A stretch of 64,000 nt of DNA, from positions 51,961,206 through 52,025,205 of the forward strand of contig CM055901.1 of assembly GCA_029582155.1 (NCBI GenBank), in the 5' to 3' direction. Under the pieces are notes generated by a model. That model was not told the origin of the DNA and did no database searches. It worked only from the letters and a program-made list of their open reading frames with translations. Both the position numbers and the translations under genes were made by a program. Origin of the DNA: Panopea generosa. Taxonomy: Eukaryota; Mollusca; Bivalvia; Adapedonta; Hiatellidae. Each line of letters opens with the position of its first letter. The stretch's first letter is position 1. Below, one piece after another: positions 8,058 through 57,636 of this stretch.

Positions 8058-8312
8058 GCACTGACCCGGATACATTGTTCTCCGACATCTACCCCCACTT
8101 GATTGGTTGTATGAAGGATATTAGATATGAGAACCAGAATGGAAGACTTGTACCTATACCTGTTACTATGCTGGAGGGTGTAGAGGAGGGATGTACAGAC
8201 AAATGTGCTGATAATCCATGTCACCATGGGGGCCTGTGTATAAACGATTACACCGAAGCAATTTGTGATTGCTTCAGCACAGACTATCAGGGAAAGTTCT
8301 GCTCTGATTTAG
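8058..8312 (+). CDS. Exon 2: end of LamG-a plus EGF-1
   Basis: The acceptor is CTCATCAG and the donor is TTAG|GTAAGC; phase 1 in, phase 1 out. The exon starts with the closing LamG segment (HLIGCMKDIRYENQNGRL). An EGF module follows, with cysteines in CTDKCADNPCHHGGLC and then CDCFSTDYQGKFC, the form usual in CNTNAP proteins. The last ~45 nt and the donor are the founder of the tandem array that follows. A dispersed repeat ends only about 20 bp upstream of the acceptor, so the branch point probably lies in repeat-derived sequence. Confidence 0.93.
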
Positions 8313-9925
8313 GTAAGCAATGTGTGACATGCCTTAGCACAGACTATCAGGAGAAGTTGTGCTCTGATTTTGGTTAGCAATGTGTGACTGCTTCAGCACA
8401 GACCATCAGAGGAAGTTCTGCTCTGATTTAGGTAAACAATGTGTGACTGCTTCAGCACAGACTATCAGGGGAAGTTCTGCTCTGATTTAGGTAAGCAATG
8501 TGTGACTGTTTCAGCACAGACTATCAGGGAAAGTTCTGCACTGATTAAGGTAAGCAATGTGTTACTGCTTCAGCACAGACTATCAGGGGAAGTTGTGCTC
8601 TGATTTTGGTAAGCAATGTGTGACTGCTTCAGCACAGACCATCAGGAGAAGTTCTGCTCTGATTTTGGTAAGCAATGTGTGACTGCTTCAGCACAGACTA
8701 TCAGGAGAAGTTGTGCTCTGATTTAAGTAGGCAATGTGTGACATGCCTTAGCACAGACTATCAGGGGAAGTTGTGCTCTGACTTTGGTAAGTAATGTGTG
8801 ACTGCTTCAGCACAGACCATCAGGGGAAGTTCTGCTCTGATTTAGGTAAGCAATGTGTGACTGCTTCAGCACAGACTATCAGGGGAAGCTCTGCTCTGAT
8901 TTAGGTAAGCAATGTGTGACATGCCTTAGCACAGACTATCAGGGGAAGTTGTGCTCTGATTTTGGTAAGCAATGTGTGACTGCTTCAGCACAGACCATCA
9001 GGGGAAGTTCTGCCCTGATTTAGGTAAGCAATGTGTGACTGCTTCAGCACAGACTATTAGGGGAAGTTCTGCTCTGACTTAGGTAAGCAATGTGTGACTG
9101 TTTCAGCACAGACAATCAGGGAAAGTTCTGCACTGATTAAGGTAAGCAATGTGTGACTGCTTCAGCACAGACTATCAGGGGAAGTTGTGGTCTGCTTTAG
9201 GTAAGCAATGTGTGACTGTTTCAGCACAGACTATCAGGGAAAGTTCTGCACTGATTAAGGTAAGCAATGTGTGACTGCTTCAACACAGACTATCAGGGGA
9301 AGTTGTGGTCTGCTTTAGGTAAGCAATGTGTGACTGCTTCAGCACAGACTATCAGGGGAAGTTGTGCTCTGATTTAGGTAAGCAATGTGTAACTGCTTCA
9401 GCACAGACCATCAGGGGAAGTTCTGCTCTGATTTAGGTAAGCAATGTGTGACTGCTTCAGCACAGACTATCAGGGGAAGTTCTGCTCATATAGGTAAGCA
9501 AAGTGTAATTGTTTCAGCACAGACTATCGGGGGAAGTTTTGCTTTGATTTAGGGTAGAAACAACACAGATTATCAGGGGAAGTTCTGCTCTGATTTAGGG
9601 TAGAAACAACACAGATTATCAGGGGAAGTTTTGCTTTGATTTAGGGTAGAAATAACACAGATTATCAGGGGAAGTTCTGCTCTGATTTAGGGAGAAACAA
9701 CACAGATTATCAGGGGAAGTTTTGCTTTGATTTAGGGTAGAAATAACACAGATTATCAGGGGAAGTTCTGCTCTGATTTAGGGTAGAAACAACACAGATT
9801 ATCAGGGGAAGTTTTGTTTTGATTTAGGGTAGAAATAACACAAATTATCAGGGGAAGTTCTGCTCTGAATTAGGTAAGCAATGTGTGGCTGCTTCAGCAC
9901 AGACTATCAGAGAAAGTTGTGCTCT
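8313..9925 (+). repeat. 59-bp array copied from the exon 2 donor border
   Basis: About 27 copies. Each carries roughly 40-45 nt of the end of exon 2 (CTTCAGCACAGACTATCAGG and CTGCTCTGATTTAG) and then the intron start GTAAGCAATGTGTGA. Most copies keep the GTAAGC donor. The distal block (about 9540-9860) is a shorter subfamily in which the donor has changed to GGGTAGAA. Variant units reading GACATGCCTTAG recur near 8326, 8735 and 8910, indicating block duplication within the array. Confidence 0.93.
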
Positions 9926-15775: not shown

Positions 15776-16125
15776 CCAGGTTTCTTTCTGAAGTGAATTG
15801 ATCATATATTACCAACCAGCGCGTTTCCGAAAAAGCTTCGTAACTCCCTGTTTTCTGCCGAAGGTGTTTATTGGAAAGAGACAAACATTAATTTGTAAAC
15901 AAAACCCGTTCTCAATTATGTACTAATAATGTGTTTATATTTATTTTGCAAAGTTTCTCAGTGATCAAATAAATTATGTGTTCTATCATCTGGAAGAATA
16001 AAATTGACTTAAATTAAAACTAAAAATGACCGTTTCGGAAGTTTAATGAGACTGTAAGTGATGTTAGTGGTGTCAGACCCATGTCAGTGTGTATTGTGTT
16101 AGTGCCAGAGATATTATTAAATTGT

Positions 16126-16510: not shown

Positions 16511-16689
16511 TTTTCACTTCAACATCAATGAATACCATCCACGTATAGCATATGGTCAATGACCAGTAGTGTGTAGTGTTTGTCTCTCAGTCACTTCTTA
16601 TATCCCTTCTGTGATATGTCAAATAATTCCACTGTTCTTTTCTTGAAAAGGACTATATTACAGATGTAAACAAACAGTAAATGATATCT

Positions 16690-17004
16690 CAATTAGTCTG
16701 TTTTGGTAAGATAGGCCTATTGACTTACACACACGCCAGAAGGTCGTAGGTTCGATCCCAAGCCATGGTCATACCAAAGACATGTAAAATGGTACTAGAA
16801 GCTTCTTGCTTGGTTCTCAGTATTTATAGGATTAGTCTGTTTGGTCTGGTGTCAGTATAATGTGACTGGGATGGGGTATTATACCATGTGTCTGCGGCAT
16901 GATTACTCTATGTGTGGCAGCACTTATAATACTGGCTCAAGTAGAAACCATTGTGCGATAGGACTGAAAATTGTCGAAAGCGATGATTAACACCAATCAA
17001 TAAC
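16690..17004 (+). mobile_element. tRNA-derived SINE, reference copy
   Basis: The B-box is GGTCGTAGGTTCGATCCC. The body has GGTCATACCAAAGACATG and CAGTATAATGTGACTGGGAT then GGGGTATTATACC. The tail is GACTGAAAATTGTCGAAAGC then GATTAACACCAATCAATAA. Its body segment is the likely ancestor of the 43-bp unit at 21642. Confidence 0.7.
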
Positions 17005-17714
17005 ATGGTGTACATTCATAGTAATAATTGTAGGAATTATACACAAATAAGACAAATCTAGAATTATAATGGATGCAGCTGTCTAGTTCCAGGAGTACAG
17101 GGGGGTGTACTCTTAATCGCTTTGAAGTTAAATATATAAAGAATGTGAAAGGAGGACAGATCTGATAGTTATCTACTCAATATTATACAACTAATGTTAT
17201 AACTGGTATGATACTGTACCATAGGTTATGTCCCAGATGGGTTGTGATCTACTTGATAAATATCTACATCTGTGATAGTTTATCATAGAGACAAATCATG
17301 TGTCCTAGTGTGTTTTTTTTCTATGGTCATGGTAAAACCCTGTATTTGTTTCAGATATTCTTTATAATTTTGTTATATACTATATTATATTGTTTGGTTA
17401 TTTCCTTCTACCTATTTTTCAGTTTGTTATACTATAGACCAAATGTGACCAACTCTGCTCTTTCTATTGAAAATAACTTTATAATTTTTTGCCGTAATCC
17501 TGTTATTATGATGCCACTACATTAAAGATGCTGTTCACATTATAATGCTGATTATTTAAGTGTATAAAGGTTATTATTTATAAATGTGTTTCCATTTATA
17601 CTATAGTAAAACACAGGTATAGCAATCTCCAGGACCTTTGTTATATTCTAGGCTCACTATTTGATGGCCATTAATACATGTGTTCATCATATCATAAGGG
17701 TGTATGTTGAAATA

Positions 17715-18490
17715 AAGATGACTGTGTTCATTATAGTGATTATTTTACATTATAATGATGACTGGTTACATTATAATGATGACTGTTTACATTATAATGA
17801 TGAATTTGCATTATAATAATGACTTTACATTATAATGAAGACAGTGTTCATTATAATATCGACTGTGTTCATTATAATGTTGACTTTACATTATAATGAT
17901 GACTGTTTGCGTTATATTGATGAATTTGCATTATAATGATGACTTTGCATTACAATAATGACTTTACATTATAATGATGACTGTTTACATTATAATGATG
18001 ACTGTTAACGTTATAATGATGAATTTGCATTATAATGATGATTTTACATTATAATGATGATTGTTTACATGATAATGATAACTGTTTACATTATAATGAT
18101 AACTGTTAACAATATAATGATGACTTTTTACATGATAATGATGACTGTTTACATTATAATGATGAATTTGCATTAGAATGATGACTGTTTAAAACCATTA
18201 TAATGGTGACTTTACATTATAATTATGACTGTTTACATTATAATGATGACTTGTAAACATTATAATGATGAATTTGCATTATAATGATGACGGTTTACAT
18301 TATGATGATGACTGTTTAAAACCATTATAATGATGACTTTACATAATATTATGACTGTTTACATTATGATGATGACTGTTAACATTATAATGATGAATTT
18401 GCATTATAACGATGACTTTACATTATAAAAATGACTGTTTACATGATAATGATGAATTTGCATTATAATGATGACTGTTTACATTGTATA
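17715..18490. repeat. ~21-bp AT-rich minisatellite
   Basis: The unit is near ACATTATAATGATGACTGTT, with interspersed GAATTTGC variants and a longer form containing AAAACCATTATAATGG. It lies in the 12.8-kb intron between exons 4 and 5. No coding signal. Confidence 0.9.
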
Positions 18491-19859
18491 CATACACATT
18501 GCAGCAGTATTTCTATTCATTACCAGAAGTCATGTGGGGATGTGAGTTGCCATTTTCTTGCATACCAAACATTGATTTCCAAGTTTTTTTTATTGGGTAC
18601 AGAACCTTATATTGCCTTTCCTGTTACTCTCCTTGTTCTGTGACATGACATATTATAAACTTGTATCATAAGTTATATGATGTGATGTCCTAGAAGCTAT
18701 TGTGGTAAAAAAAAAAAGGATAATGAATTAAAATGGAATTATCATTCAATGTGTTTGGTATGCAAGAAATAGACTCATTCATGCTTTGTTTCTTTTGATC
18801 AGATAAAAAAATCTTTCAATCTAGGGACAACTGTTATACATGGTTACTCAACAGAGCCTTGTTCCTGTCAAAACAGTTTTCCCTTGGGACACAAATTTTC
18901 TATTCGAACCTCAAACCCATGATTGATTCTTATAGCATCACATACCTGAATAAAAATCATTTGACATCATTAATATTCCAATGTAATGCCTAGTTCGAAT
19001 TTACTGTTTTTAATGGTAAATTCAAGTTGTTACATGTTTATATCTTGGTAGATGAGAAAAGTATGAATTGTAGATGAGAAATTAGCAAAGAAGTTGTTTC
19101 TTTGTATAAACTTCCCTCATCCATTGCAAAATGCCATTTTAGATTCACTTTGTCGTCACTTTGTTTTTAATTTGATATTAAGCAGCTAACAGTCCAACAA
19201 CTACTGCAGCAACCCTTATAGATTTTTCTGCAATCAAACATACATTATGTATAAGCTGTTTTATTCATAGCTGCATTTCAGCAACAAATAATACATGCTT
19301 TTTTGTTTCTTTCAGACATTTACCGTATGTAACCAGATAATGGGCACTTATTTTTGCAACCCCTTAATACCCTACGTTTTTTTTTTCTTTTACAACAAAA
19401 TATTTAGCTTGTACATTGTATCTTGATACTCTCCATATTTTTGTATCTGTAACACTTCCGAGTATGGTTGTTGTATTTAGTCATAAAGATTGCTTTGGTC
19501 ACATTTGGTACTGTAATTTGCCAAATATTAATATATATTTTATATCCATGTATGATATTGTAGGTATACCATTTTGAGCGAGGACATATTTTGTAGTCCA
19601 AGTGCTGTCTGGTATCCATAATCATTCTTAAATCTTCAACCTGCTGTATACTACACTTGAATTGATCTTGGTTTGACTCCGATCATGTTTAATTGAATAC
19701 TGGAAACTTTTAACAAATGGGAAACTTGGGGAAGCTTTCTGGGTAGTTTTGGTTTGGACTGGTTACAAAAGTTGTTGAGTTTATGTTCAGCAGGGCAGTG
19801 GTTATACAATTTCTCTTCTGAAAATGTTTCAATAAAAGGGAGACCTCTGGGGCTGAGAG

Positions 19860-19990
19860 ATCTAAGGTACTGTTGTCAAATGACCTCTCACCTCTAACTG
19901 CTGAGGTCATGGGTTCGAGCCCTGCTAGGTTTAAAAACTTATGAGAAGGACAGTTTTTCTACTGATTCATCCTTTCTGCACCAATAAAAC
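19860..19990 (+). mobile_element. SINE fragment with B-box
   Basis: GAGGTCATGGGTTCGAGCCC is a B-box-like segment. The following AACTTATGAGAAGGACAG resembles the body of tRNA SINEs near 46735. Confidence 0.45.
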
Positions 19991-20911
19991 TTGATATGCC
20001 ATATATAACTTATTGTGGGTTGAAAATGCCTAAAACTTCAGTTTATAAAAAAAAAATTCTGTACATACTTTCTTGTTTGGAACATGTTTTGACACCCATT
20101 TGCTGTTGTTGTTGGTCCAGAATCGAAAGTCATTCAGTAAATTCTATTCTTATAATTATTCAACTGACAGTCCTTCCATCTATTCAAAAAATATTGCTAA
20201 GGCATATTTTATTTATTACTGTTTTTTTTCCAAATTTAATTTACAACATTAGAGAAACATTCAGTTGATGCCTGGATCAGCTTTAAAATATAACTTGCCC
20301 CCACCAAATCCTGCTTATTGCCTTATTTTAAAATAACAATGGAATTTAATTAGTTCTGCATTAATTAATGGCACCCAACATTAAGTTATGGTAACTCCTC
20401 CCCCACAATGGCAGCACTCTTCTTCTAAACACCTGGCCATTAATTAGAAATCAGTAAATCTTAAATCCATCATGAAAGACCTGCAATATTTATTTTACTA
20501 ATTTACTAATGCATCAAAGTCATAACCAAACTTTTAAAGGTGAATTGATAAAGTGCTTGCTGTGTTTAGAGCGCCACATTGATGTAGGCTTCAGTAGTAG
20601 CTGTCTCTCGTGCCACATTTATGTCGAGTTTTAATCTCTTATTTAACCATTATCTATATCATTTCATATTTTTAATTGTGTTGTAATTACATAGTAATTA
20701 TGAACCTGTCATCACAATGATCAACAGGGGACATTAGTATGTCGTTCAGTTTTTATTTATGTATTCCATATTTCATTTGTTTAATGTGTTGTACCATGTG
20801 GTTATCTCACTGAAATAGGTTCATGTTGTGATGTTTGCATTTATGTTTTACTCCATTGTTTATTATTCCCATTGAAAGGACTATAAAATTTGAGTCTATT
20901 TTGAAATTATA

Positions 20912-21418
20912 CTGAGTTCCAAAAGTTTTGTACCTCTTTTTGAAATGGCCATTTTTCGAAGATCAAAGATAAAAGTATTATGCTTAGAGCAACATTTAAA
21001 TCATCGAATTTCATCACACACATCAAATTTTTATGACAAAGCAAACACTCCGATCAAAAGTACAGACTTAGTCAATATTAGGAATGACCTCCATTGGCGA
21101 CTATACAGCTAAGGCACCAATATTGCAATGATCGTTCCACTGTCCTTATTGTCGTGCATTGTCATGCTGGATGGAACTATATACCACAAAGGGGTATAAG
21201 AACAGTGGTACAATCAATGTGATCACGATTCCTAAGCTAAGAATGTGTGACGGTTTATGTGTTTACATGGATTTGCTGTGTCGTAAAATTTGATGTGTGT
21301 TATGAAATTCGCTGAATTAAATGTTGTTCTCAGCATACATACTTTTATCTTTCATCAACCTTTAACTGTTTCGAAAAATTGCCATTTCAAAAAGAGGTGC
21401 AAAACTTTTGTGACTCAG
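20912..21418. mobile_element. 507-bp non-autonomous Tc1/mariner-type element
   Basis: Flanked by TA. The 5' end CTGAGTTCCAAAAGTTTTGT and the 3' end AAAACTTTTGTGACTCAG are inverted matches that continue inward for about 50 bp (TTTTTGAAATGGCCATTTTT against ATTGCCATTTCAAAAAGAGG). The interior has no transposase frame. It ends a few bases before the SINE head at 21431. Confidence 0.85.
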
Positions 21419-21430
21419 TATATAAGAAAA

Positions 21431-24400
21431 GTGGAGCGTGTGGTCCAGAGGTAGAGCATCGAATCGATCGGAGGGTTGTGGGTTCAATCTCTACCCAAAC
21501 CCCCCAGCTATGTGTAGTGTCATTGAGCAAGATATTTTTTCCACATATATTTGTTACTGGTTCTACCCAGGAAGACTTTGAGTGTGATTTGTGTCAGTTG
21601 AAATTACTTGTTTTACAATCAAAGTAAAATAAATAAAGTCCCAGTGTAGTTTGACTGGGTGGGGTGTCATGTCAGGCCAAGTCCCAGTGTAGTGTGACTG
21701 GGTGGGGTGTCATATTGTGCCAAGTCCCAGTGTAGTGTGACTGGGTGGGATGTCATGTCAGGTCAAGTCCCAGTGTAGTGTGACTTGGTGGAGTGTCATA
21801 TTGTGCCAAGTCCCAGTGTAGTGTGACTGGGTGGGATGTCATATTGTGCCAAGTCCCAGTGTAGTGTGACTGGGTGGGGTGTCATGTCAGGCCAAGTCCC
21901 AGTGTAGTGTAACTGGGTGGGGTGTCATGTTGGGCCAAGTCCCAGTGTAGTGTAACTGGGTGGGGTGTTATGTCAGGCCAAGTCCCAGTGTAGTGTGACT
22001 GGGTGGGGTGTCATGTTGGGCCAAGTCCCAGTGTAGTGTGACTTGGTGGGGTGTCATATTGTGCCAAGTCCGAGTGTAGTGTGACTGGGTGGGGTGTCAT
22101 GTTATGCCAAGTCCCAGTGTAGTGTGACTGGGTGGGGTGTCATATTGTGCCAAGTCCGAGTGTAGTGTGACTGGGTGGGGTGTCATGTCAGGCCAAGTCC
22201 CAGTGTAGTTTGACTGGGTGGGGTGTCATGTTAAGCCAAGTCCCAGTGTAGTGTGACTGGGTGGGGTGTCATATTGTGCCAAGTCCCAGTGTAGTGTGAC
22301 TGGGTGGGGTGTCATGTCAGGCCAAGTCCGAGTGTAGTGTGACTGGGTGGGGTGTCATGTTATGCCAAGTCCCAGTGTAGTGTGACTGGGTGGGGTGTCA
22401 TATTGTGCCAAGTCCCAGTGTAGTGTGACTGGGTGGGGTGTCATGTCGGGCCAAGTCCCAGTGTAGTGTGACTGGGTGGGTTTCATGCCAGGCCAAGTCC
22501 CAGTGTAGTGTGACTTGGTGGGGTGTCGTATTGTGCCAATTCCCAGTGTAGAATGACTGGGTGGGGTGTCATGTCAGGCCAAGTCCCAGTGTAGTGTGAC
22601 TGGGTGGGGTATCATATTGTGCCAAGTCTCAGTGTAGTTTGACTGGATGGGGTGTCATGTCAGGCCAAGTCCCAGTGTAGTGTGACTGGTAGGGATGTCA
22701 TGTCGGGCCAAGTCCCAGTGTAGTGTGACTGGGTGGGGTGTCATGTCAGGCCAAGTCCCAGTGTAGTGTGACTGGTAGGGATGTCATGTCAGGCCAAGTC
22801 CCAGTGTAGTGTGACTGGGTGGGGTGTCATGCCAGGCCAAGTCCCAGTGTAGTGTGACTGGGTGGGGTGTCATGTTGGGCCAAATCCCAGTGTAGTGTGA
22901 CTGGGTGGGGTGTCATATTGCGCCAAGTCTCAGTGTAGTGTGACTGGGTGCGGTGTCATGTCAGGCCAAGTCCCAGTGTAGTGTGACTGGGTGGGATGTC
23001 ATATTGTGCCAAGTCCCAGTGTAGTGTGACTGGGTGGGGTGTCATATTGTGCCAAGTCCCAGTGTAGTGTGACTGGGTGGGGTGTCATGTTGGGCCAAGT
23101 CCTAGTGTAGTGTGACTGGGTGAGGTGTCATGTCAGGCCAAGTCCCTGTGTAGTGTGACTGGGTGGGGTGTCATGTTGGGCCAAGTCCCAGTGTAGTGTG
23201 ACTTGGTGGGATGTCATGTCGGGCCAAGTCCAAGTGTAGTGTGACTGGGTGGGGTGTCATACTGTGCCAAGTTCCAGTGTAGTGTGACTGGGTGGGGTGT
23301 CATGTCCGGTCAAGTCCCAGTGTAGTGTGACTGGGTGGGATGTCATGTCGGGCCAAGTCCCAGTGTAGTGTGACTGGGTGGGGTGTCATATTGTGCCAAG
23401 TCCCAGTGTAGTGTGACTGGTAGGGATGTCATGTCAGGCCAAGTCCCAGTGTAGTGTGACTGGGTGGGTAGTCATACTGTGCCAAGTCCCAGTGTAGTGT
23501 GACTGGGTGGGGTGTCATGCCAGGCCAAGTCCCAGTGTAGTGTGACTGGGTGGGGTGTCATGTTGGGCCAAGTCCCAGTGTAGTGTGACTGGGTGGGGTG
23601 TCATATTGTGCCAAGTCCCAGTGTAGTGTGACTGGGTGGGTGTCATGTTGGGCCAAGTCCCAGTGTAGTGTGACTGGGTGGGGTGTCATATTGTGCCAAG
23701 TCCTAGTGTAGTGGGACTGGGTGGGGTGTCATGTCAGGCCAAGTCCCTGTGTAGTGTGACTTGGTGGGGTGTCATGTCAGGCCAAGTCCCAGTGTAGTGT
23801 GACTTGGAGTCATATTGTGCCAAGTCTCAGTGTATTGTGACTTGGTGGGATGTCATGTTGGGCCAAGTGCCAGTGTAGTGTGTCTGGGTGAGGTATAAGG
23901 TGGGCCTAGTTCCAGTGTAGTGTGACTGGGTGGGATGTCATGTCAGGCCAAGTCCCAGTGTAGTGTGACTGGGTGGGATGTCATGTCAGGCTAAGTCTCA
24001 GTGTAGTTTGACTGGGTGGGGTGTCATGTCAGGCCAAGTCCCAGTGTAGTGTGACTGGGTGGGGTGTCATATTGTGCCAAGTCCCAGTGTAGTGTGACTG
24101 GGTGGGGTGTCATACTGTGCCAAGTCCCAGTGTAGTGTGACTTGGTGGGATGTCATGTCGGGTCATGTCCCAGTGTAGTGTGACTGGGTGGGGTGTCATA
24201 CTGTGCCAAGTCCCAGTGTAGTGTGACTGGATGGGGTGTCATGTTGGGCCAAGTCCCAGTGTAGTGTGACTGGGTGGGGTGTCATATTGTGCCAAGTCTC
24301 AGTGTAGTGTGACTTGGTGGGATGTCATGTTGGGCCAAGTCCCAGTGTAGTATGACTGGGTGGGGAGTCATATTGTGCCAAGTCTCAGTGTATTGTGACT

Positions 24401-24750
24401 TGGTGGGATGTCATGTTGGGCCAAGTTCCATTGTAGTGTGACTGGGTGGGGTGTAATGTTGGGCCTAGTGCCAGTGTAGTGTGTCTGGGTGAGGTATAAG
24501 GTGGGCCTAGTTCCAGTGTAGTGTGACTGGGTGGAGTGTCATGTTGGGCCAAGTTCCAGTGTAGTGTGACTGGGTGGGATGTCATGTTAGGCCAAGTTCC
24601 AGTGTAGTGTGACTGGAAAGGGTATCATGTTAGGTGGAGTTCCAGTGTAGTGTGACTTGGTAGGTTGTCATGTCATACAGTTTTAAATATATATGACTGT
24701 TGTCATAGAACTGAAAAATGTTGAAAGTCACATTAAACATCATGTAATTT
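21431..24750 (+). mobile_element. SINE with internally amplified body
   Basis: The head is GTGGTCCAGAGGTAGAGCAT (A-box region) and GGTTGTGGGTTCAATCTC (B-box). The tail at 24700-24750 is AGAACTGAAAAATGTTGAAA then GTCACATTAAACATCA, like other SINE tails here. Between them lie about 3 kb of 43-bp copies where a normal SINE body would be about 200 bp. Confidence 0.65.
21642..24670 (+). repeat. 43-bp array (~70 copies) inside a SINE
   Basis: The unit combines GCCAAGTCCCAGTGTAGTG, TGACTGGGTGGGGTGTCAT and GTCAG. It is flanked upstream by a tRNA-like SINE head (about 21431) and downstream by a SINE-type tail (to about 24750). The unit resembles the body of the intact SINE at 16690-17004 (CAGTATAATGTGACTGGGAT), so it is best explained as internal amplification of a SINE segment. 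Confidence 0.93.
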
Positions 24751-25874
24751 AATGTCCGTCCTTCAGTATACCCGCTGCCCGATTAGCCGCTTTCTTACTG
24801 ATCTATTTTGTCACATGCAATAATAAACCAACTATGTAGTTAAATTGGGTATGTGTGGTTTTAGCATTGATGCCCAAAGGTTACACCAAACACCAGCTTG
24901 ATTAAAATATGAAGTGTTTTATGTTGTGCCAAAGGCTATCAATTTTTGCAGCTTTTTGCTTGCTGGTAATTTTTGTCTTCCATCTGTAAATTATTTGTAA
25001 AGGTTTATATAATAAAATAACTAAAGAACGTGCTATTAAAAACAAAATCATCAATATATTATTTATGTCATATTCCTTTGATGTTACTGAGATTAAATCA
25101 CTTTTTCATAATATTCATATTTCATCTTCAGTCCAAACTAATCCAGATAAACAATTTCATTTTTCTTTCATTAAAATAACCATGACAGTTTGATTAAAAT
25201 TATTTTACTGATTAATAATATTTATTTTATAATATTATATCTCACCTACTTAAGAATTAACTGATTGTATATTGAAGTGTGAGGGACGTTCAAGAAAAAT
25301 ACATGGCAAAATAATGATGAAGAAAAAATAATTGTATATATTGAAATTAATTGGACATTAATTGTCGTTAGTAAGATATATGATTGTAAATAAAAGTTTG
25401 TATTATATGATCATTTTTGTCTGATTTCTCAACGACATTTTTTTGAATGCTAGTTTACAAAAATTGACATTCAATTTTTGAAAAATCAACAGAAATACGA
25501 CAACAAAAACCTACTGCAACAATCTCCCAGTTTGTAAGAGGTATTACTCCTTAGTATGCCAGGAAAGGCAGTTATACAGTGTGAATCCTTTTGATGTTTG
25601 TAAACTTTATTTTATGGATTGTCAAAATGTTGAAAATTAATAAATATGTTTATACCAATTTACAGATTTTGGTATTAAACTTAAAAATGTGTAACCGAAT
25701 CATTCTGAAAAAAAGTCCAATTAACAAAACATCACATTAATTTTAATTTTATGGATTGGTTTCCATATTTCTTGAATGCCCTTTTCACTGTTGTTCACAA
25801 TTCAATATACATGAATTTTTAGTTGTATATAAGAATTATAACAAAATTCATGTTAATCTTTATTAATTTCATAG
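24751..25874. other. Intron sequence, nothing recognised
   Basis: AT-rich; leads into the exon 5 acceptor. No repeat copy or coding segment noticed. Confidence 0.6.
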
Positions 25875-26029
25875 GTGGCACAACCTGACAATTCTCCATG
25901 ACAACCACACAGTTTACGTGTACCTGGACGGGCGGGAACACATGCGGGGTATAAAGGGCAACACACGTTATCTTGGACTGGGCACCAACATATTTATAGG
26001 CGGCGGAGAAAATTTTGTTATCACAAGAG
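25875..26029 (+). CDS. Exon 5: C-terminal LamG-b
   Basis: The acceptor is TTTCATAG and the donor is AGAG|GTATGA; phase 2 in, phase 1 out. It encodes WHNLTILHDNHTVYVYLDGR and ends GLGTNIFIGGGENFVITRG, the standard W-H...V-x-v-y-l-D-g...l-yiGG pattern of LamG. It follows a 12.8-kb intron filled by SINEs, MITEs and two arrays. NLT is a possible N-glycosylation site. Confidence 0.92.
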
Positions 26030-26233
26030 GTATGACATTTTAACTTGTTATTTCTTTAAAAATGTTGTAATGCTACAATTATGGGGCTATGTTAGATTGA
26101 TTTTTATGTCCTTGTATAATAAGTCGGAGAAAATTATAAGTTATAAAACAGAACTTAATATACTGTTGAATTCAGTGAAATACTATTTTATTATTAAGTG
26201 TTTGCCATAATTGGTGTTCAGTAAAATATTATA

Positions 26234-26411
26234 CAATCAAACCTGCCATAAACAGCAAGTGAAGGGAATGAGCAAAAGTGGTCTTTTATGACAGGTTGTT
26301 GTTAGATGCAGGTTACTTTGTTCTGAAAGCATATAAATGGGAAATAACAAATATGGCTGTTTGAGGCAAGTGGCTGCGTGATAGAGGTGACGGCATATAC
26401 ATGTTTCACTA
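26234..26411. mobile_element. MITE with CAGTCAAACCTG inverted ends (copy 3, degraded)
   Basis: CAATCAAACCTGCCATAAAC at the 5' end and ACATGTTTCACTATA at the 3' end. It aligns along its length with the other copies but its ends are mutated. Confidence 0.7.
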
Positions 26412-26608
26412 TAAGTTGTTAAGTTGTTAAGAAATACAAAGAAAAATACTGATATTTTGACAGATTTCCAACTTATATATTAAAATTATTCTTCAAGACT
26501 TTTTTCAATCTTTGATGTTCACAAACCAATGGCCTTATTACAATATTATAGTATAATGGTGAAGATTCAAAATAATATTTGACCATTTACTTTCTTTTCA
26601 AATGTCAG

Positions 26609-26940
26609 GTTTACAGGTAACTCAAAACTTCGTTGGCTGCCTGAAAAACATTTACATCAATGATGTCTCCATCTTGTATCAACTACACGAAGGTGATTCC
26701 TCGGTCACATATCATGGTGGAGGCTCCACACGCCCTCAATACACATGTCAGGAAGTGGTGAACATTCCCATTTCATTCCCGACATCAGCAGCCATGTTGA
26801 TGCTTGATTCTACAGCGGAAATGAAACAGAACTTCAACATCGAGTTTGATTTTAAGACAGTCCGGTCTGAGGCCATTCTGCTGTATGTCAGTCTCGTGGA
26901 CACAGATACCTCCATGGCATATCACTTTGGATTTATTGAG
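26609..26940 (+). CDS. Exon 6: end of LamG-b and start of LamG-c
   Basis: The acceptor is AATGTCAG and the donor is TTGAG|GTAAAA; phase 1 in, phase 0 out. It begins with NFVGCLKNIYINDVSILYQL, the closing segment of LamG-b, has a cysteine at PQYTCQEV, and runs directly into the first strands of the next LamG (NFNIEFDFKTVRSEAILLYV). No EGF separates the two LamG domains, as in CNTNAP LamG1-LamG2. At 332 bp it is the longest exon in the window. Confidence 0.94.
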
Positions 26941-32194: not shown

Positions 32195-34630
32195 CGAAAT
32201 TCAAGGTATTACACCATATAGTCATGGTGAGTGAACTTAAGGTATTACACCATATAGTCATGGTGGGGTGGACTTAAGGTATTACACCATATAGTCATGG
32301 TGAGTGAACTTAAGGTATTACACCATATAGTCATGGTGAGTGAACTTAAGGTATTACACCATATAGTCATGGTGGGGTGGACTTAAGGTATTACACCATA
32401 TAGTCATGGTGGGTGAACTTAAGGTATTACACCATATAGTCACAATAGGGTGGACTTAAGGTATTACACCATATAGTCATGGTGGGTGGACTTAAGGTAT
32501 TACAACATAAAGTCATTGTGGGTGGACTTAAGGTATTACACCATATAGTCATGGTGGGTGGACTTAAGGTATTGCACCATATAGTCATGGTGGGTGGACT
32601 TAAGGTATTACACCATATAGTCATGGTGGGGTGGACTTAAGGTATTACACCATATAGTCATGGTGAGTGAACTTAAGGTATTACACCATATAGTCATGGT
32701 GGGGTGGACTTAAGGTATTACACCATATAGTCATGGTGAGTGAACTTAAGGTATTACACCATATAGTCATGGTGGGGTGGACTTAAGGTATTACACCATA
32801 TAGTCATGGTGGGTGAACTTAAGGTATTACACCACATAGTCACAATAGGGTGGACTTAAGGTATTACACCATATAGTCATGGTGGGTGGACTTAAGGTAT
32901 TACAACATAAAGTCATTGTGGGTGGACTTAAGGTATTACACCATATAGTCATGGTGGGGTGGACTTAAGGTATTACACCATATAATCATGGCGAAGTGAA
33001 CTAAAGGTATAACAACATAAAGTCATTGTGGGTGGAATTAAGGTATTACACCATATAGTCATGGTGGGGTGGACTTAAGGTATTACACCATATAATCATG
33101 ATGAGTGAACTAAAGGTATTACAACATAAAGTCATTGTGGGTGGACTTAAGGTATTACAACATAAAGTCATTGTGGGTGGACTTAAGTTATCTCACCAAT
33201 CAATTATGGTGGATGGACTTAAGGTATTAAACCAATCAATCATGGTGGGAGGACTTAAGGTATTACACCACATAGTCATGGTGGGTGGACTTAAGGTATT
33301 ACACTATATAGTTATGGTAGTTGGACTTAAGGTATTACACCATATAGTCATGGTGAGTGGACTTAAGGTATTACACCATATAGTCATGGTGGGTGGACTT
33401 AAGGTATTACACCATACAGTCATGGTAGTTGGACTTAAGTTATCACATCAATCAATCATGGTGGGTGGACTTAAGGTATTACACCATATAGTCATGGTAG
33501 TTGGACTTAAGTTATCACACCAATCAATCATGGTGGGTGGATTTAAGGTATTACACCATATAGTCTTGGTGGTTGGACTTATGGTATTACACCATATAGT
33601 CATGGTAGTTGGACTTTAGTTATCACACCAATCAATCATGATGGGTGGACTTAAGGTATTACACCATATAGTCATGGTAGTTGGACTTTAGTTATCACAC
33701 CAATCAATCATGATGGGTGGACTTAAGGTATTACACCATATAGTCATGGTGGTTGGACTTATGGTATTACACCATATAGTTATGGTAGTTGGACTTTAGT
33801 TATCACACCAATCAATCATGATGGGTGGACTTAAGGTATTACACCATATAGTCATGGTGGGTGGACTTAAGGTATTACACCATACAGTCATGGTAGTTGG
33901 ACTTAAGTTATCACACCAATCAATCATGGTGGGTGGACTTAAGGTATTACACCATATAGTCATGGTAGTTGGACTTAAGTTATCACACCAATCAATCATG
34001 ATGGGTGGACTTAAGGTATTACACCATATAGTCATGGTAGTTGGACTTTAGTTATCACACCAATCAATCATGATGGATGGACTTAAGGTATTACACCATA
34101 TAGTCATGGTAGTTGGACTTAAGTTATCACACTAATCAATCATGATGGGTGGACTTAAGGTATTACACCATATAGTTATGGTAGTTGGACTTAAGTTATT
34201 ACACCAATCAATCATGGTGGGTGGACTTAAGGTATTACACCATATAGTCATGGTGGTTGGACTTAAGTGATCACACCAATCAATCATGATGGGTGGACTT
34301 AAGGTATTACACCATATAGTTATGGTAGTTGGACTTAAGTTATTACACCAATCAATCATGGTGGGTGGACTTAAGGTATTACACCATATAGTCGTTGCAG
34401 TTGGACTTAAGTTATCACACCAATCAATCATGGTGGGTGGACTTAATGTATTACACCATATAGTCATGGCAGTTGGACTTAAGTGATCACATCAATCAAT
34501 CATGGTTGGTGGACTAAAGGTATTACACCATATAGTCATGGCACTTGGACTTAAGTTAGCACACCAATCAATCATGGTGGGTGGACTTAAGGTATTACAC
34601 CATATAGTCATGGTGGGTGAACTTAAACAT
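32195..34630. repeat. 36-bp minisatellite, ~67 copies, A/B dimer in 3' half
   Basis: Type A: ACTTAAGGTATTACACCATA then TAGTCATGGTGGGTGG. Type B: ACTTAAGTTATCACACCAAT then CAATCATGGTGGGTGG. The 5' half is nearly all A. From about 33420 on, A and B alternate as a 72-bp unit. Because 36 is a multiple of three, all copies read in the same frame, which explains the open frames on both strands. The array ends about 30 bp before exon 12. Confidence 0.94.
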
Positions 34631-38524: not shown

Positions 38525-38753
38525 ATACAACTGTAAAGTTCTACTTTCGTTGGGGTCTGAAGAAGCTTGAAGTGGACATTGTTAGCCCAGTACCTATCAG
38601 CAATGGTCAATGGCACCAGATCACCATAGAGACTGACCAGTTCAACATCCGCTGTATGTTGGACATGTCTGAGAAGATACTTTCCATACCAGATGGTGTT
38701 CCCAGGGTGATGGCTTTCTCTGGTACCCTGTATATTGGAGGGGTTCCAGATAG
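38525..38753 (+). CDS. Exon 15: central and C-terminal LamG-d
   Basis: The acceptor is TTTAAACAG and the donor is GATAG|GTAGGA; phase 1 in, phase 2 out. It encodes VKFYFRWGLKKLEVDIV, then ISNGQWHQITIETDQFNI and GTLYIGGVPD. N-G-Q-W-H and LYIGGVP are canonical LamG motifs. The last ~41 nt with the donor are repeated three more times immediately downstream. Confidence 0.95.
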
Positions 38754-38935
38754 GTAGGATGCAATGTCTTTCTCTGGTACCCTGTATATTGGAGGGGCAC
38801 CCGATAGGTAGATTGCAATGTCTTTCTCTGGTACCCTGTATATTGGAGGAGTACCAGATAGGTAGGATGCAAGTGTCTTTCTCTGGTACCCTGTATATTG
38901 GAGGGGTACCAGATAGGTAGGATGCAATGTCTTCA
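38754..38935 (+). repeat. 54-bp array copied from the exon 15 donor border
   Basis: TGGTACCCTG occurs at 38721 (in the exon), 38775, 38829 and 38884, spacing 54-55 bp. Each copy repeats about 41 nt of exon (ending GGTACCAGATAG) and about 13 nt of intron (GTAGGATGCAATG). All copies except possibly the second keep the GTAG donor. Reading past the true donor meets TAG at once. Confidence 0.92.
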
Positions 38936-43327: not shown

Positions 43328-43537
43328 AGCAAATAAAAATAGATGACAGAATAGAGGAAACTGTGAAGCCCATACGTACGGACAAACCCTCAGCCCCTGG
43401 CATGCATGTGTATGTGGGCGGGGTACCAGATACCATGTCAACAGACTCTACACACCCAAACCTACATGGTTGTATACGTGGACTGAAGATTGGCTCCAGA
43501 GTGTTTAAACTGCAGAAAAAGGCAGCAAAAACTCCAG
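43328..43537 (+). CDS. Exon 20: end of LamG-e
   Basis: The acceptor is TTATTTGTAG and the donor is TCCAG|GTGTGT; phase 1 in, phase 1 out. It encodes GMHVYVGGVPDTMSTDS and then LHGCIRGLKIGSRVFKL. V-Y-V-G-G-V-P and G-C-I-R-G-L are the LamG closing motifs. The last ~12 nt with the donor are repeated five more times downstream as a 23-bp array. Confidence 0.95.
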
Positions 43538-43665
43538 GTGTGTAAATGCAAAAACTCCAGGTGTGTAAATGCAGAAACTCCAGGTGTGTAAATGCAAAAA
43601 CTCCAGGTGTGTAAATGCAAAAACTCCAGGTTTGTAAATGCAAAAACTCCAGGTTTGTAAATACT
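43538..43665 (+). repeat. 23-bp array copied from the exon 20 donor border
   Basis: ACTCC recurs at 43531 (exon), 43554, 43577, 43600, 43623 and 43646, exactly 23 bp apart. Each unit is about 12 nt of exon end (AAAAACTCCAG) plus the donor and intron start GTGTGTAAATGC. The last two units change GTGT to GTTT. Confidence 0.93.
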
Positions 43666-50455: not shown

Positions 50456-51888
50456 TATGTCATAGTTTTATATATGTATATATATATAGTCAAACAAAGC
50501 CTGAAACTCCAATCTGCATATTTGTTAATAATACATTGTATAATGTGTTAATTGTTTTATGATATCGTATATAATTATGTTATATGTTGTTTATTGGATT
50601 TTGTCACCATATTTGTAATCATATATATATATATATGTGACTATTCCCTCAATGGCTCTCAGACCTTCTGGAATTGTAATGGAAATAAACTTGTCAAATT
50701 TGTCATATAAAAGGTCTAGGAAACCAGCAAAATGACAGACAATTGGTTGCATAATGGAACATAGAATTCATCACTTGACAAGTATGAGGTCAACATTTAC
50801 AAAATACATGCATTTAAATTTTCAATTTTTACTTCATTTGCTTGTAAATTCAAATTTTTTGTTGGATGTATTTCATATCGATGGTCCTCATTTAAACATA
50901 TACATATTTTCCTTAAAAAATATATGTTAATAAATTTCCAATCAAAACGAGAAAGTGCAAATGGCACACCATCCCCTTTCCTTACATAAAGCATATTTTG
51001 TAAAGACTGAAAATTATCAATAATATTAATGCGTAATTGAACACAGAAATTCCTTAATTGTCTTAAATTTTCATTTAGAATTGTCAAAACAACAGATTGT
51101 AAAATTTGAAGTTCAATAAATTATTTCATAACATTTATTGTAAAGTCAAAAAATGTATTAGTTTATACTAATTTATTTATTTAACTACATTGTGATGAAA
51201 GCTGATGCCAAAATATGTTTTGATATCATAATCTAAGTCGATAATAGTTCTAACATTGCATCAGTCTCAGTTGCAATGTCTTGGACACTGAATTTACATA
51301 AAGAAATTCAAGTAATATAAATTGAAGTTTATTTGGTTACTTGCCAAATAAACCTAAATTTATTCGGTCCTTCCTTTATTATGTCTTATAATGACTAGTG
51401 ATAGGATTACATAAAAATGACAGACATATTGTTACTTCTTGTTGGTGGATGTACATGACTGTAGTATACTTAATATCCTTTTATTAATTGTGTCCACACT
51501 ACTTGGTGGCTGACCAGTCCTTGATGGTTGACCTGTCCTTGGTGGCTGGCCTGTCCTTGGAGGCTGGTCTGTCCTTGGTGGCTGACCTGTCCTTGGTGGC
51601 TGGTCTGTCTTTGTGGCTGACTTGTCCTTGGTGGTTTTTATATACCATTCAAAAAGATTGTTAATCTGATGCATACTGTTTCATTTTCACTAGATCAAAA
51701 ATAACTTTTGCTGAAACATGCTCCTCAAACAATAGTGATTATAGGTTAGGTAATCAGTAAATCTGTCAGTGTGTAACATGTTGTACAAGTGAATATTTAC
51801 AAGTCCAGTAAACATGAGGTATTTATAAACAAAAAAGGGGGGGGGAAATAGAATAGATATAACTATATCATGATTACAATATTTTCAG
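50456..51888. other. Intron sequence with one small tandem repeat
   Basis: Contains TA-rich dinucleotide tracts near 50620 and the 18-bp repeat at 51505. A 96-codon minus-strand frame at 50797-51087 resembles no family I recognise. Confidence 0.55.
51505..51640. repeat. 18-bp tandem repeat, ~7 copies
   Basis: The unit is near GGCTGACCTGTCCTTGGT. On the minus strand it reads as repeated P-P-R-T-G-Q or P-P-R-T-D-Q within an 80-codon open frame. No start context or splice support makes it a convincing gene. Confidence 0.75.
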
Positions 51889-51971
51889 GTACTTCACCCA
51901 TGATTTCCTGATCGTGTACCTGGATCCAAACACAGGAGTGTTCCTGAATACAAACCAGGGGTACAATATAC
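51889..51971 (+). CDS. Exon 23: LamG-f
   Basis: The acceptor is TATTTTCAG and the donor is ATAC|GTAAGT; phase 2 in, phase 1 out. It encodes YFTHDFLIVYLDPNTGVFLN and TNQGYNI. The pattern D-F-L-I-V-Y-L then G-V-F fits the LamG strands after L-V-F-I-Y in exon 22. At 83 bp it is isolated between a 6.7-kb intron and the 5.2-kb intron that holds the 40-bp array. Confidence 0.9.
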
Positions 51972-52049
51972 GTAAGTCAAAAGTCGATTACTTTTCATCC
52001 CAAATTTACAAACTAAATAAACATATCTTATAAACTGGTTTTCAGTAAT

Positions 52050-52215
52050 ACATGCAGGGTCATTGACAGTCAACAGGTAGAGGTTCTGTCTCAAAGAACC
52101 TTTCACCAAGAAGGTCATGGGTTTGAGCTGATTTTGGTTCACATACTTTAGGTTAGAAAGTTTGAAAGCTGTTTAAAGAAGGAGTGGGCTCATTCATTCT
52201 TAGGTCTTTCATCAC
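52050..52215 (+). mobile_element. SINE fragment with B-box
   Basis: AACAGGTAGAGGTTCTGTCT (A-box region) and AAGGTCATGGGTTTGAGC (B-box), then AAAGAAGGAGTGGGCTCATT. Lies just upstream of the 40-bp array. Confidence 0.45.
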
Positions 52216-52446
52216 TAATAAAAGTGGATGCCAAATACAGTCGGTAATATTGTATTGTTGAGGAGACAGCTTGACTGTTGATTTCATCTGCTCTTCTAGC
52301 CATGGGTTGTGACCTGACAAAGACACTTTTTTTTCAATTTTTATCATCACTATGCATGTTCTTGTTTTTGGTTCACACATGCACAAAGTATGATTCAACT
52401 TGGATTTCAATGAGATTTTTTTTTTTTGTAGGAGGGTGAATGGGAA

Positions 52447-55400
52447 TAGAGTGGATATGATGGGAGCATTTGCTTATGTTTTCAGGTGGAGTTAGTAAGA
52501 TTGGAATATTTGCTTATGTTTTCAGGTGGAGTTGGTAAGATTGGAATATTTGCTTGTGTTTTCAGGTGGAGTTAGTAAGATTGGAATATTTGCTTGTGTT
52601 TTCAGATGGAGTTGGTAAGATTGGAATATTTGCTTATGTTTTCAGATGGAGTTGGTAAGATTGGAATAGTTGCTTGTGTCTTCAGGTGGAGTTAGTAAGA
52701 TTGGAATATTTGCTTATGTTTTCATATGGAGTTGGTAAGATTGGAATATTTGCTTGTGTTTTCAGATGGAGTTGGTAAGATTGGAATATTTGCTTATGTT
52801 TTCAGATGTAGTTGGTAAGATTGGAATATTTGCTTGTGTTTTCAGGTTGAGTTAGTAAGAGAGGAATATTTGCTTATGTTTTCAGATGGAGTTGGTAAGA
52901 TTGGAATATTTGCTTATGTTTTCAGATGGAGTTAGTAAGATTGGAATATTTGCTTGTGTTTTCAGATGGAGTTGGTAAGACTGGAATATTTGCTTATGTT
53001 TTCAGGTGGAATTGGTAAGATTGGAATATTTGCTTATGTTTTCAGAAGGAGTTGGTAAGATTGGAATATTTGCTTGTGTTTTCAGATAGAGTTGGTAAAA
53101 TTGGAATATTTGCTTGTGTTTTCAGATGGAGTTTGTAAGATTGGAATATTTGCTTGTGTTTTCAGGTGGAGTTAGTAAGACTGGAATATTTGCTTGTGTT
53201 TTCAGATGGAGTTGGTAAGATTGGAATATTTGCTTGTGTTTTCAGATGGAGTTGGTAAGATTGGAATATTTGCTTGTGTTTTCAGGTGGAGTTAGTAAGA
53301 TTGAAATATTTGCTTGTGTTTTCAGGTGGAGTTAGTAAGATTTGAATATTTGCTTATGTTTTCATGTGGAGTTAGTAAGATTGGAATATTAGCTTATGGT
53401 TTCAGGTGGAGTTAGTAAGATTGGAATATTTGCTTGTGTTTTCAGGTGGAGTTAGTAAGATTGGAATATTTGCTTGTGTTTTCAGATGGAGTTGGTAAGA
53501 TTGGAATATTTGCTTGTGTTTTCAGGTGGAGTTGGTAAGATTGGAATATTTGCTTGTGTTTTCAGATGGAGTTGGTAAGATTGGAATATTTGCTTGTGTT
53601 TTCTGGTGGAGTTGGTAAGATTGGAATATTTGCTTGTGTTTTCAGGTGGAGTTAGTAAGATTGGAATATTTGCTTGTATTTTCAGGTAGAGTTAGTAAGA
53701 TTCGAATATTTGCTTATGTTTTCAGGTGGAGTTAGTAAGATTGGAATATTTGCTTGTGTTTTCAGGTGGAGTTAGCAATATTGGAATATTTGCTTATGTT
53801 TTCAGGTGGAGTTAGTAAGATTGGAATATTTGCTTGTGTTTTCAGATGGAGTTTGTAAGATTGGAATATTTGCTTGTGTTTTCAGGTGGAGTTAGTAAGA
53901 TTGGAATATTTGCTTGTGTTTTCAGATGGAGTTGGTAAGATTGGAATATTTGCTTGTGTTTTCAGATGGAGTTGGTAAGCTTGGAATATTTGCTTGTGTT
54001 TTCAGGTGGAGTTAGTAAGATTGGAATATTTGCTTGTGTTTTCAGATGGAGTTAGTAAGATTGGAATATTTGCTTGTGTTTTCAGATTGAGTTAGTAAGA
54101 TTGGAATATTTGCTTGTGTTTTCAGGTGGAGTTAGTAAGATTGGAATATTTGCTTATGTTTTCAGGTGGAGTTAGTAAGATTGGAATATTTGCTTGTGTT
54201 TTCAGATGGAGTTGGTAAGATTGGAATATTTGCTTATGTTTTACAGATGGAGTTGGTAAGATTGGAATATTTGCTTATGTTTTCAGGTGGAGTTAGTAAG
54301 ATTGGAACATTTGCTTGTGTTTTCAGGTGGAGTTAGTAAGATTGGAATGTTTGCTTGTGTTTTCAGATGGAGTTGGTAAGATTGGAATATTTGCCTATGT
54401 TTTCAGATGGAGTAAGTAAGATTGGAATATTTTCTTGTGCTTCAGGTGGAGTTAGTGAGATTGGAATATTTGCTTGTGTTTTCAGATGGAGTTAGTAAGA
54501 TTGGAATATTTGCTTGTGTTTTCAGGTGGAGTTAGTAAGACTGGAATATTTGCTTGTGTTTTCAAATAGAGTTGGTAAGATTGGAATATTTGCCTATGTT
54601 TTCAGATGGAGTTGGTAAGATTGGAATATTTGCTTATGTTTTCAGGTGGAGTTAGTAAGATTGGAACATTTGCTTGTGTTTTCAGATGGAGTTAGTAAGA
54701 TTGGAATATTTGCTTGTGTTTTCAGATGGAGTTGGTAAGATTGGAATATTTGCCTATGTTTTCAGATGGAGTTTGTAAGATTGGAATATTTGCTTGTGCT
54801 TCAGGTGGAGTTAGTAAGATTGGAATATTTGCTTATGTTTTCAGGTGGAGTTAGTAAGATTGGATTATTTGCTTGTGTTTTCAGATCGAGTTGGTAAGAT
54901 TGGAATATGTGCTTATGTTTTTCAGGAGGAGTTAGTAAGATTGGAATATTTGCTTGTGTTTTCAGGTGGAGTTGGTAAGATTGGAATATTTGCTTGTGTT
55001 TTCAGGTGGAGTTGGTAAGATTGGAATATTTGCTTGTGTTTTCATGTGGAGTTAGTTAGATTGAAATATTTGCTTATGTTTTCAGAAGGAGTTGGTAAGA
55101 TTGGAATATTTGCTTGTGTTTTCAGATAGAGTTGGTAAAATTGGAATATTTGCTTGTGTTTTCAGATGGAGTTTGTAAGATTGGAATATTTGCTTGTGTT
55201 TTCAGGTGGAGTTAGTAAGACTGGAATATTTGCTTGTGTTTTCAGATGGAGTTGGTAAGATTGGAATATTTGCTTGTGTTTTCAGATGGAGTTGGTAAGA
55301 TTGGAATATTTGCTTGTGTTTTCAGGTGGAGTTAGTAAGATTGAAATATTTGCTTGTGTTTTCAGGTGGAGTTAGTAAGATTTGAATATTTGCTTATGTT

Positions 55401-57126
55401 TTCAGGTGGAGTTAGTAAGATTGGAATATTAGCTTATGTTTTCAGGTGGAGTTAGTAAGATTGGAATATTTGCTTGTGTTTTCAGGTGGAGTTAGTAAGA
55501 TTGGAATATTTGCTTGTGTTTTCAGATGGAGTTGGTAAGATTGGAATATTTGCTTGTGTTTTCAGGTGGAGTTGGTAAGATTGGAATATTTGCTTGTGTT
55601 TTCAGATGGAGTTGGTAAGATTGGAATATTTGCTTGTGTTTTCTGGTGGAGTTGGTAAGATTGGAATATTTGCTTGTGTTTTCAGGTGGAGTTAGTAAGA
55701 TTGGAATATTTGCTTGTATTTTCAGGTAGAGTTAGTAAGATTCGAATATTTGCTTATGTTTTCAGGTGGAGTTAGTAAGATTGGAATATTTGCTTGTGTT
55801 TTCAGGTGGAGTTAGCAATATTGGAATATTTGCTTATGTTTTCAGGTGGAGTTAGTAAGATTGGAATATTTGCTTGTGTTTTCAGATGGAGTTTGTAAGA
55901 TTGGAATATTTGCTTGTGTTTTCAGATGGAGTTGGTAAGCTTGGAATATTTGCTTGTGTTTTCAGGTGGAGTTAGTAAGATTGGAATATTTGCTTGTGTT
56001 TTCAGATGGAGTTAGTAAGATTGGAATATTTGCTTGTGTTTTCAGATTGAGTTAGTAAGATTGGAATATTTGCTTGTGTTTTCAGGTGGAGTTAGTAAGA
56101 TTGGAATATTTGCATTATGTTTTCAGGTGGAGTTAGTAAGATTGGAATATTTGCTTGTGTTTTCAGATGGAGTTGGTAAGATTGGAATATTTGCTTATGT
56201 TTTACAGATGGAGTTGGTAAGATTGGAATATTTGCTTATGTTTTCAGGTGGAGTTAGTAAGATTGGAACATTTGCTTGTGTTTTCAGGTGGAGTTAGTAA
56301 GATTGGAATGTTTGCTTGTGTTTTCAGATGGAGTTGGTAAGATTGGAATATTTGCCTATGTTTTCAGATGGAGTAAGTAAGATTGGAATATTTTCTTGTG
56401 CTTCAGGTGGAGTTAATGAGATTGGAATATTTGCTTGTGTTTTCAGATGGAGTTAGTAAGATTGGAATATTTGCTTGTGTTTTCAGGTGGAGTTAGTAAG
56501 ACTGGAATATTTGCTTGTGTTTTCAAATAGAGTTGGTAAGATTGGAATATTTGCTTATGTTTTCAGATGGAGTTGGTAAGATTGGAATATTTGCTTATGT
56601 TTTCAGGTGGAGTTAGTAAGATTGGAACATTTGCTTGTGTTTTCAGATGGAGTTAGTAAGATTGGAATATTTGCTTGTGTTTTCAGATGGAGTTGGTAAG
56701 ATTGGAATATTTGCCTATGTTTTCATATGGAGTAAGTAAGATTGGAATATTTGCTTGTGCTTCAGGTGGAGTTAGTAAGATTGGAATATTTGCTTGTGTT
56801 TTCAGGTGGAGTTAGTAAGATTGGAATATTTGCTTATGTTTTCATGTGGAGTTAGTAAGATTGGATTATTTGCTTGTGTTTTCAGATGGAGTTGGTAAGA
56901 TTGGAATATGTGCTTATGTTTTTCAGGAGGAGTTAGTCAGATTGGAATATTTGCTTGTGTTTTCAGGTGGAGTTGGTAAGATTGGAATATTTGCTTGTGT
57001 TTTCAGGTGGAGTTGGTAAGATTGGAATATTTGCTTGTGTTTTCATGTGGAGTTAGTTAGATTGGAATATTTGCTTATGTTTTCAGATGGAGTTAGTTAG
57101 ATTGGAATATTTGCTTATGTTTTCAG
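52447..57126 (+). repeat. 40-bp array (~117 copies) copied from the exon 24 acceptor border
   Basis: The unit is (A/G)TGGAGTT(A/G)GTAAGAT then TGGAATATTTGCTTGTG and TTTTCAG. It equals the end of the preceding intron (TTGTGTTTTCAG) plus the first ~28 nt of exon 24. Nearly every copy keeps the TTTTCAG acceptor and a GTAAGA donor-like site 9 nt further on. The unit length is not a multiple of three, and reading on from an upstream acceptor meets TAA or TAG in the next unit. A block of about 2 kb is duplicated inside the array. Confidence 0.96.
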
Positions 57127-57212
57127 ATGGAGTTGGTAAGATGGGAAAATTTGCAGACGGACGTCCACATCAGCTGCTGTATCAGCGCAAAAACAAAGAA
57201 ATGATTTTGACG
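57127..57212 (+). CDS. Exon 24: LamG-f, at the end of the 40-bp array
   Basis: The acceptor is TGTTTTCAG, the last copy in the array, and the donor is TGACG|GTAAAT; phase 1 in, phase 0 out. It encodes HGVGKMGKFADGRPHQLL and YQRKNKEMILT. D-G-R-P-H matches the N-G-Q-P-H strand of the last LamG in CNTNAPs. The first ~28 nt resemble the repeat unit (GVGKMGKFA against GVGKIGIFA in the copies), so the array came from this exon border. The codons GGT AAG create an internal cryptic donor. A later AG at 57156 would drop the conserved A-D, so 57127 is preferred. Confidence 0.85.
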
Positions 57213-57636
57213 GTAAATAATATTTATAATGTGCCGTTTAATTGACAAGGCATTGACAGCATGGGAGATGTTCTAAACAAACAGATTTTAAGATCGTTTT
57301 AATCACATATTGAAACAGAGTTTTGATAAGGCATGCATTTTAATTTAATGTTGATTTTTCTTTTTTAAAAAATGTTACAAAACCATGAAAGTTTTGAAAT
57401 GATGAATGATTGAAGAATAAAATCTTTAGATAATTACCTGAAAAAATACCAGTAAGTAAGAGTCTACGCTCTACAGTTTATATACTATTAATAAAGTATC
57501 TTTTTTTTTTTTATTTCTTAACTTTTGTACGTCTTAATTTTGGAAATTTTGTTTTGGAAAACATACTTGACTAGAAAATAATTTAATGCATGGTTGGTAT
57601 GCTTGATTCATGATACAGTCATATGGATTTACCAAT

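Follow-up and report, generated by a model that had tools for sequence, protein, structure and literature searches.

The 40-bp tandem array at 52468-57154 of the window (the whole 64,000-nucleotide stretch of Panopea generosa DNA that was analyzed) is a real and extreme example of an already described kind of repeat, the mirage, in which a minisatellite lies over an exon/intron boundary. It repeats a predicted 3′ splice site of a neurexin-like gene, and an open frame leads onward solely from the last copy of the acceptor. We consider it highly probable that the array is a mirage-type minisatellite that originated by slippage or unequal exchange and grew neutrally, and that exon definition picks the acceptor nearest the exon.

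Relation to known boundary-spanning minisatellites

Mirages were described in amphioxus as minisatellites over the exon/intron boundaries of Adh3, BflGb6, BflGb9, TnC and PGBD5, on the acceptor side in BflGb6 and on the donor side in BflGb9 (PMC3087553, PMC3902484). According to these two reports, the boundary-spanning unit repeats the splice site of the 5′ or 3′ edge, the arrays are unstable in length and regular splicing is apparently undisturbed; one of them proposes mirages as a route to new introns (PMC3087553). In the array described here the unit likewise spans a predicted boundary, and the splice signal survives in many copies, though not in every one (106 of 116 have AG). Counting the arrays reported below, either exon edge is affected and several genes are involved, with nine donor and three acceptor cases. 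The copy number differs, about 117 against six and three in the two BflGb6 haplotypes. As for length instability, a 2-kb duplication inside the array would be an indirect sign of it, seen in one assembly. In contrast to the amphioxus mirages, a frequency across sampled exons was estimated here. In the human gene IFI6 (6-16/G1P3) a minisatellite offers several splice donors, of which downstream units are reportedly used (Turri 1995, as cited in PMC4526556), whereas the present array is on the acceptor side and its sites are predicted.

The original prediction treated the array as a puzzle of one locus. That framing is not supported, since mirages had already been described and, elsewhere in this genome, were present at 8 of the 80 exons that we sampled from other genes. 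No mollusc case was recognised in a literature search of titles and abstracts, with most subscription journals outside its scope; the present data extend mirages from lancelets to a mollusc genome with a frequency estimate of 8 in 80 sampled exons. The array also amounts to a natural experiment in splice-site choice, with more than one hundred acceptor copies whose differences from the real site lie mainly in the exon part; RNA from the gene would reveal the weight of exon-side information in that choice.

Structure of the array

The following features were assigned to the array and the exons on either side of it:

51889..51971, + strand, coding exon upstream of the array, number 18 of the 19 modelled, with donor ATATAC/GTAAGT; reads YFTHDFLIVYLDPNTGVFLNTNQGYNI
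52446..52485, + strand, first unit by the 40-bp register, degenerate and ending in the first decoy acceptor
52486..57126, + strand, 40-bp array of 116 units, with 106 decoy AG positions and 113 GT at +10
53046..57126, + strand, segmental duplication within the array, 53046-55085 against 55086-57126
57127..57212, + strand, predicted real coding exon, exon 19 of 19 modelled, with donor TTGACG/GTAAAT; its first 28 nt correspond to the exon part of the array

An approximately 117-fold tandem multiplication of one 3′ splice site had been predicted, and this was confirmed: TRF gave 117.2 copies with 92% matches, and cutting at the acceptor yielded 116 units (52486..57126) ahead of the coding exon at 57127. 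The parsed units are mostly 40 bp long (107 units, with five of 41 bp and four of 39 bp) and comprise 50 distinct sequences. As had also been predicted, the unit joins about 12 nt of intron end to about 28 nt of exon start. Each unit consists of 28 nt resembling the beginning of the exon and a 12-nt intron end, the latter mostly TTRTGTTTTCAG; when the first 28 nt of the exon were compared with the 116 units, 22 to 26 positions were identical.

The proposed array start at 52447 proved sensible, as it falls in the degenerate unit 52446-52485. Within this unit, positions 52450-52473 agree with the exon at 19 of 24 positions and with the array consensus at 18 of 24. A score of 19 was reached by none of 59,246 positions outside the array, where the best was 16. 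The degenerate unit has the exon-like GATGGGA at the place where the array interior has GATTGGA.

Most of the array is a pair of near-identical 2-kb blocks. The blocks 53046-55085 and 55086-57126 show 99.4% ungapped identity, with 11 mismatches and 161 gap columns, and identical units recur at lag 49 (19 of 67) and at lag 51 (19 of 65). This near-identity suggests a recent doubling of about 50 units, provided that the assembly is correct.

The host gene

Nineteen exons were modelled in the window, with matching phases apart from a single gap left by a missing exon; further exons are probably missing in the gap 8312-26609. The number 24 originally given to the exon at 57127, here the nineteenth, may or may not be right. 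Exon 51889-51971 leaves one base, which is completed by the exon at 57127. LamG and EGF domains were found in the gene, and the closest solved relative of the assembled pieces is neurexin-1-alpha, the listed alignments ending at residue 299 of 358, short of exon 57127-57212. The last three exons together gave a weak LamG match (E 0.0096, below the Pfam cut-off), and the best match of the last two exons alone to solved chains was an unrelated receptor (E 0.72). The gene thus appears neurexin-like, and the exon at 57127 would fit into it in phase; its predicted use is founded on frame, phase and the sub-threshold LamG match. A fibrinogen-like part and a Caspr-like label for the gene are our presumption from domain order, and Pfam searches with the two pieces concerned gave no match. 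Searching the 1.47-Gb genome at the protein level with these exons produced four candidates, three being the window itself and the fourth weak (C7, E 0.12). In the 37 kb that follow (57213-94000), a crude motif scan recognised no downstream exons or remainder of the gene.

The region preceding the array contains other repeats. A 24-bp repeat is present in two copies at 51914-51959, within exon 51889-51971, and a dispersed repeat at about 51209-51422 has 41 further scored matches of 76-87% identity on many contigs. A DNA search with 51000-57600 of the window, in which 40 of 364 candidates were scored and simple repeats skipped, gave 42 matches, namely its own place and these 41, all inside the dispersed repeat; given that scoring and the skipping of simple repeats, copies of the array could still exist elsewhere in the genome.

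Decoy acceptors

It had been stated that almost every unit keeps a good TTTTCAG acceptor. The exact TTTTCAG was found 99 times, the real acceptor included, and AG precedes 106 of the 116 decoy positions. Sites were scored with a simple table that we wrote from general knowledge and that also served to place the edges in the survey described below. By this rough measure 61 of the 106 AG decoys equal or exceed the real acceptor; the mean decoy score is 4.4, and the 19 modelled acceptors of the gene range from -0.6 to 7.2. The abundance of good acceptors therefore stands, but not the idea that they are kept. According to column counts, the final G of the acceptor is altered in eight of the 107 forty-base units, and this makes it one of the two most variable columns, three A/G-alternating columns aside (column 3 is the highest, with nine). 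The acceptor copies show no sign of upkeep for splicing and appear to be still present because the array is homogeneous, not because they are maintained. Selection against decoys near the exon was considered and rejected: the AG is missing from 3 of the 11 units nearest the exon and from 7 of the remaining 105 (P 0.053), and owing to the duplicated block the units are not independent.

None of the 106 AG decoys has an open frame to 57212, as a stop is met first in every case, which agrees with the claim that the frame is open solely from the last acceptor. The predicted difference between the exon (GVGKMGKFA) and its copies (GVGKIGIFA) was also found: the copies join as HGVGKIGIFA, RGVSKIGIFA and similar, and the real exon joins as YNI-HGVGKMGKFADGRPHQ.

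Comparison of the junctions revealed two decoys identical to the real site from -25 to +9 and six identical from -20 to +3. Among the decoys compared none matched from -30 to +9, and no decoy match extended beyond the first 16 nt of the exon. With the near-upstream sequence also present at some decoys, the real site would be set apart mainly on the exon side; as no decoy shares -30 to +9, an intron-side cue may also be present.

A GT 9 nt after the acceptor (+10) occurs together with AG in 103 of 116 units, in a phase that fits both neighbouring exons. In 100 of these 103 the product would be three in-frame residues without a stop, and AG/GT is read in 54 units. The GT sits in the coding triplets GTT GGT AAG (V-G-K), and the real exon has the same at 57136, so we take it for a chance by-product of coding triplets that could still matter. 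As for the expectation that a wrong choice would likely lead to transcript decay, 103 of 116 units have an in-phase GT of their own 9 nt downstream, and decay need not be the sole outcome. Recursive splice sites and RS-exons are known in which an acceptor is closely followed by a donor. The array resembles RS-exons in having a candidate donor close behind the acceptor and differs in that this predicted pair is repeated in tandem more than 100 times, with a spacing of 9 nt.

Proposed origin and splice-site choice

The unit runs from an ATTTGC in the intron to an ATTTGC located 28 nt inside the exon, each present once, and the multiplication lies on the intron side of the last junction. The presence of ATTTGC at both ends of the unit fits a start by slippage or unequal exchange between two short direct repeats. 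The array would then have grown neutrally, with the exon-proximal acceptor still working. If the exon was the source and the array interior was subsequently homogenised, the exon-like GATGGGA of the outermost unit is as expected. The mechanism is likely to have been ordinary minisatellite growth. The spliceosome would pick the last copy by exon definition, guided mainly from the exon side, by the remainder of the 86-nt exon together with the donor at 57213; no decoy would have a partner donor at a normal exon length free of stops.

Several other explanations were weighed against neutral growth. The copy number could in part be an artefact, the 2-kb duplication representing two haplotypes or a misjoin, as might be suspected from the 99.4% ungapped identity of its halves. 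We regard this as unlikely, given the 11 substitutions and 161 gap columns between the halves; even without one block about 65 units would be left, and the mirage nature of the array is independent of the duplication.

The remaining alternatives assign a role to the decoys. The 103 units that combine AG with GT at +10 (100 of them in frame without a stop, 54 with AG/GT) would allow an upstream copy to be used now and then, either as a 9-nt microexon or as a recursive stepping stone, splicing then continuing in frame towards 57127. We see a small chance of this, since the donor consists of coding triplets found equally in the real exon and need not be an adaptation, the readable units of the two acceptor arrays found in other genes (L029 and L041) have no GT at +10, and nine-nucleotide exons are hard to define. 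It is very unlikely that the units form a splicing ladder, in which the donor 9 nt downstream would neutralize each decoy and mis-splicing would be repaired stepwise and in frame, so that more than 100 false acceptors would be carried at no cost, with an occasional three residues in a LamG loop. We likewise give little credit to a leaky poison element, in which decoy use would produce stop-containing transcripts and lower the output of the gene to a level set by the copy number. The absence of an open frame to 57212 from all 106 decoys would suit such an element, as would decoy scores within the range of the modelled acceptors of the gene by the rough table, but acceptor conservation left no sign, nothing ties copy number to expression, and amphioxus mirages are reported to be without aberrant mRNA (PMC3902484).

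Other arrays at exon edges

Three further arrays in the same gene lie over a modelled exon edge:

8256..9874, + strand, second mirage; 59-bp unit made of the end of exon 8058-8312 and the donor AG/GTAAGC, followed by a 46-bp derivative
38710..38933, + strand, third mirage; 54-bp unit made of the end of exon 38525-38753 and the donor GATAG/GTAGGA
43525..43662, + strand, fourth mirage; 23-bp unit made of the end of exon 43328-43537 and the donor CTCCAG/GTGTGT

The second of these contains 15 copies of AGGTAAGC. Multi-kb minisatellites without a modelled exon edge are also present in the window, at 3578-6322 (17 bp), 21636-24673 (43 bp) and 32203-34626 (36 bp).

Other genes of the genome were surveyed through 80 family matches, each counted as one exon: 30 of 81 myosin-head and 30 of 57 ABC-transporter matches, taken with 1.5-kb flanks, and 20 of 49 LamG matches with 200-bp flanks. 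An array spanning a predicted edge together with its splice site was present at 8 of the 80 exons, or about one in 20 edges. Six are on the donor side (L024, L042, L048, L049, L057 and L090) and two on the acceptor side (L029 and L041), so that with the four in this gene there are nine donor and three acceptor cases. Among the 60 long loci, 13 had an array near the exon and seven of these arrays straddle an edge; those of L021, L038 (which misses the acceptor by 8 bp), L064, L065, L072 and L074 were not counted. Four of the 20 LamG stretches contain an array, and L090 alone straddles. Six of the 20 are open to the end of the stretch, and fewer than 160 edges were therefore really seen; 15 of the 60 long matches contain a stop and could extend beyond a single exon, and some survey loci overlap or share one gene. 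The longest array in the survey was the donor mirage of L048 (1710-3285 in the coding orientation, 80 bp x 19.7), which adjoins an ABC-transporter exon.

In eight of the nine donor mirages the next copy repeats the junction, and its use would lead first to a stop (five cases) or to a frame shift (three cases); the exception is the mirage at 8312, whose next unit does not have the same junction. In the three acceptor cases the upstream frames are closed within 70 nt. The exon-proximal copy is therefore a plausible candidate for the site used in each mirage.

In the 195,780 bases of the 60 long loci there are 88 arrays with a period of 10 or more, which make up 14% of this sequence with overlapping loci counted twice. 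Under a null model in which the starting unit may fall anywhere, 7 of 120 edges were straddled against 3.3 expected (P 0.053), and with the 20 LamG exons included, 8 of at most 160 edges against 4.4 expected (P 0.08). Enrichment at exon edges was accordingly not accepted, as the excess in this outside survey is not clear. Within the span of this gene 4 of 22 arrays straddle an edge, against a placement null mean of 1.13 (P 0.019); with the 14 arrays that measure 100 bp or more, the null mean was 0.60 (P 0.004). Both figures come from the discovery sample. The window is richer, with four against 0.5 expected, but this array was the reason for choosing it. A combined count of 11 against 3.9 (P 0.002) was set aside since it includes the discovery sample. 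Overall, arrays at exon edges are not clearly commoner than a genome so rich in minisatellites should give, and the frequency is compatible with a near-random by-product where minisatellites make up about 14% of the sampled gene regions. We infer that such arrays escape selection because one good splice site survives when an exon edge is duplicated.

Two further observations were made during the genome searches. On the minus strand of C9 (63446809-63451292), 27 exact matches of a pattern coding for FMRFGKRFMRFG lie within 4.5 kb, in what looks like a very long FMRFamide-type precursor; a large precursor of this type is a trait of lophotrochozoans and would probably set the genome apart from that of a lancelet. 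A FARP family search, in which no control came out positive either, found nothing. On C8, two pairs of LamG matches that are identical in score and spacing lie about 251 kb apart (52506795-52509066 and 52758153-52760424), apparently a recent duplication or an assembly duplicate.
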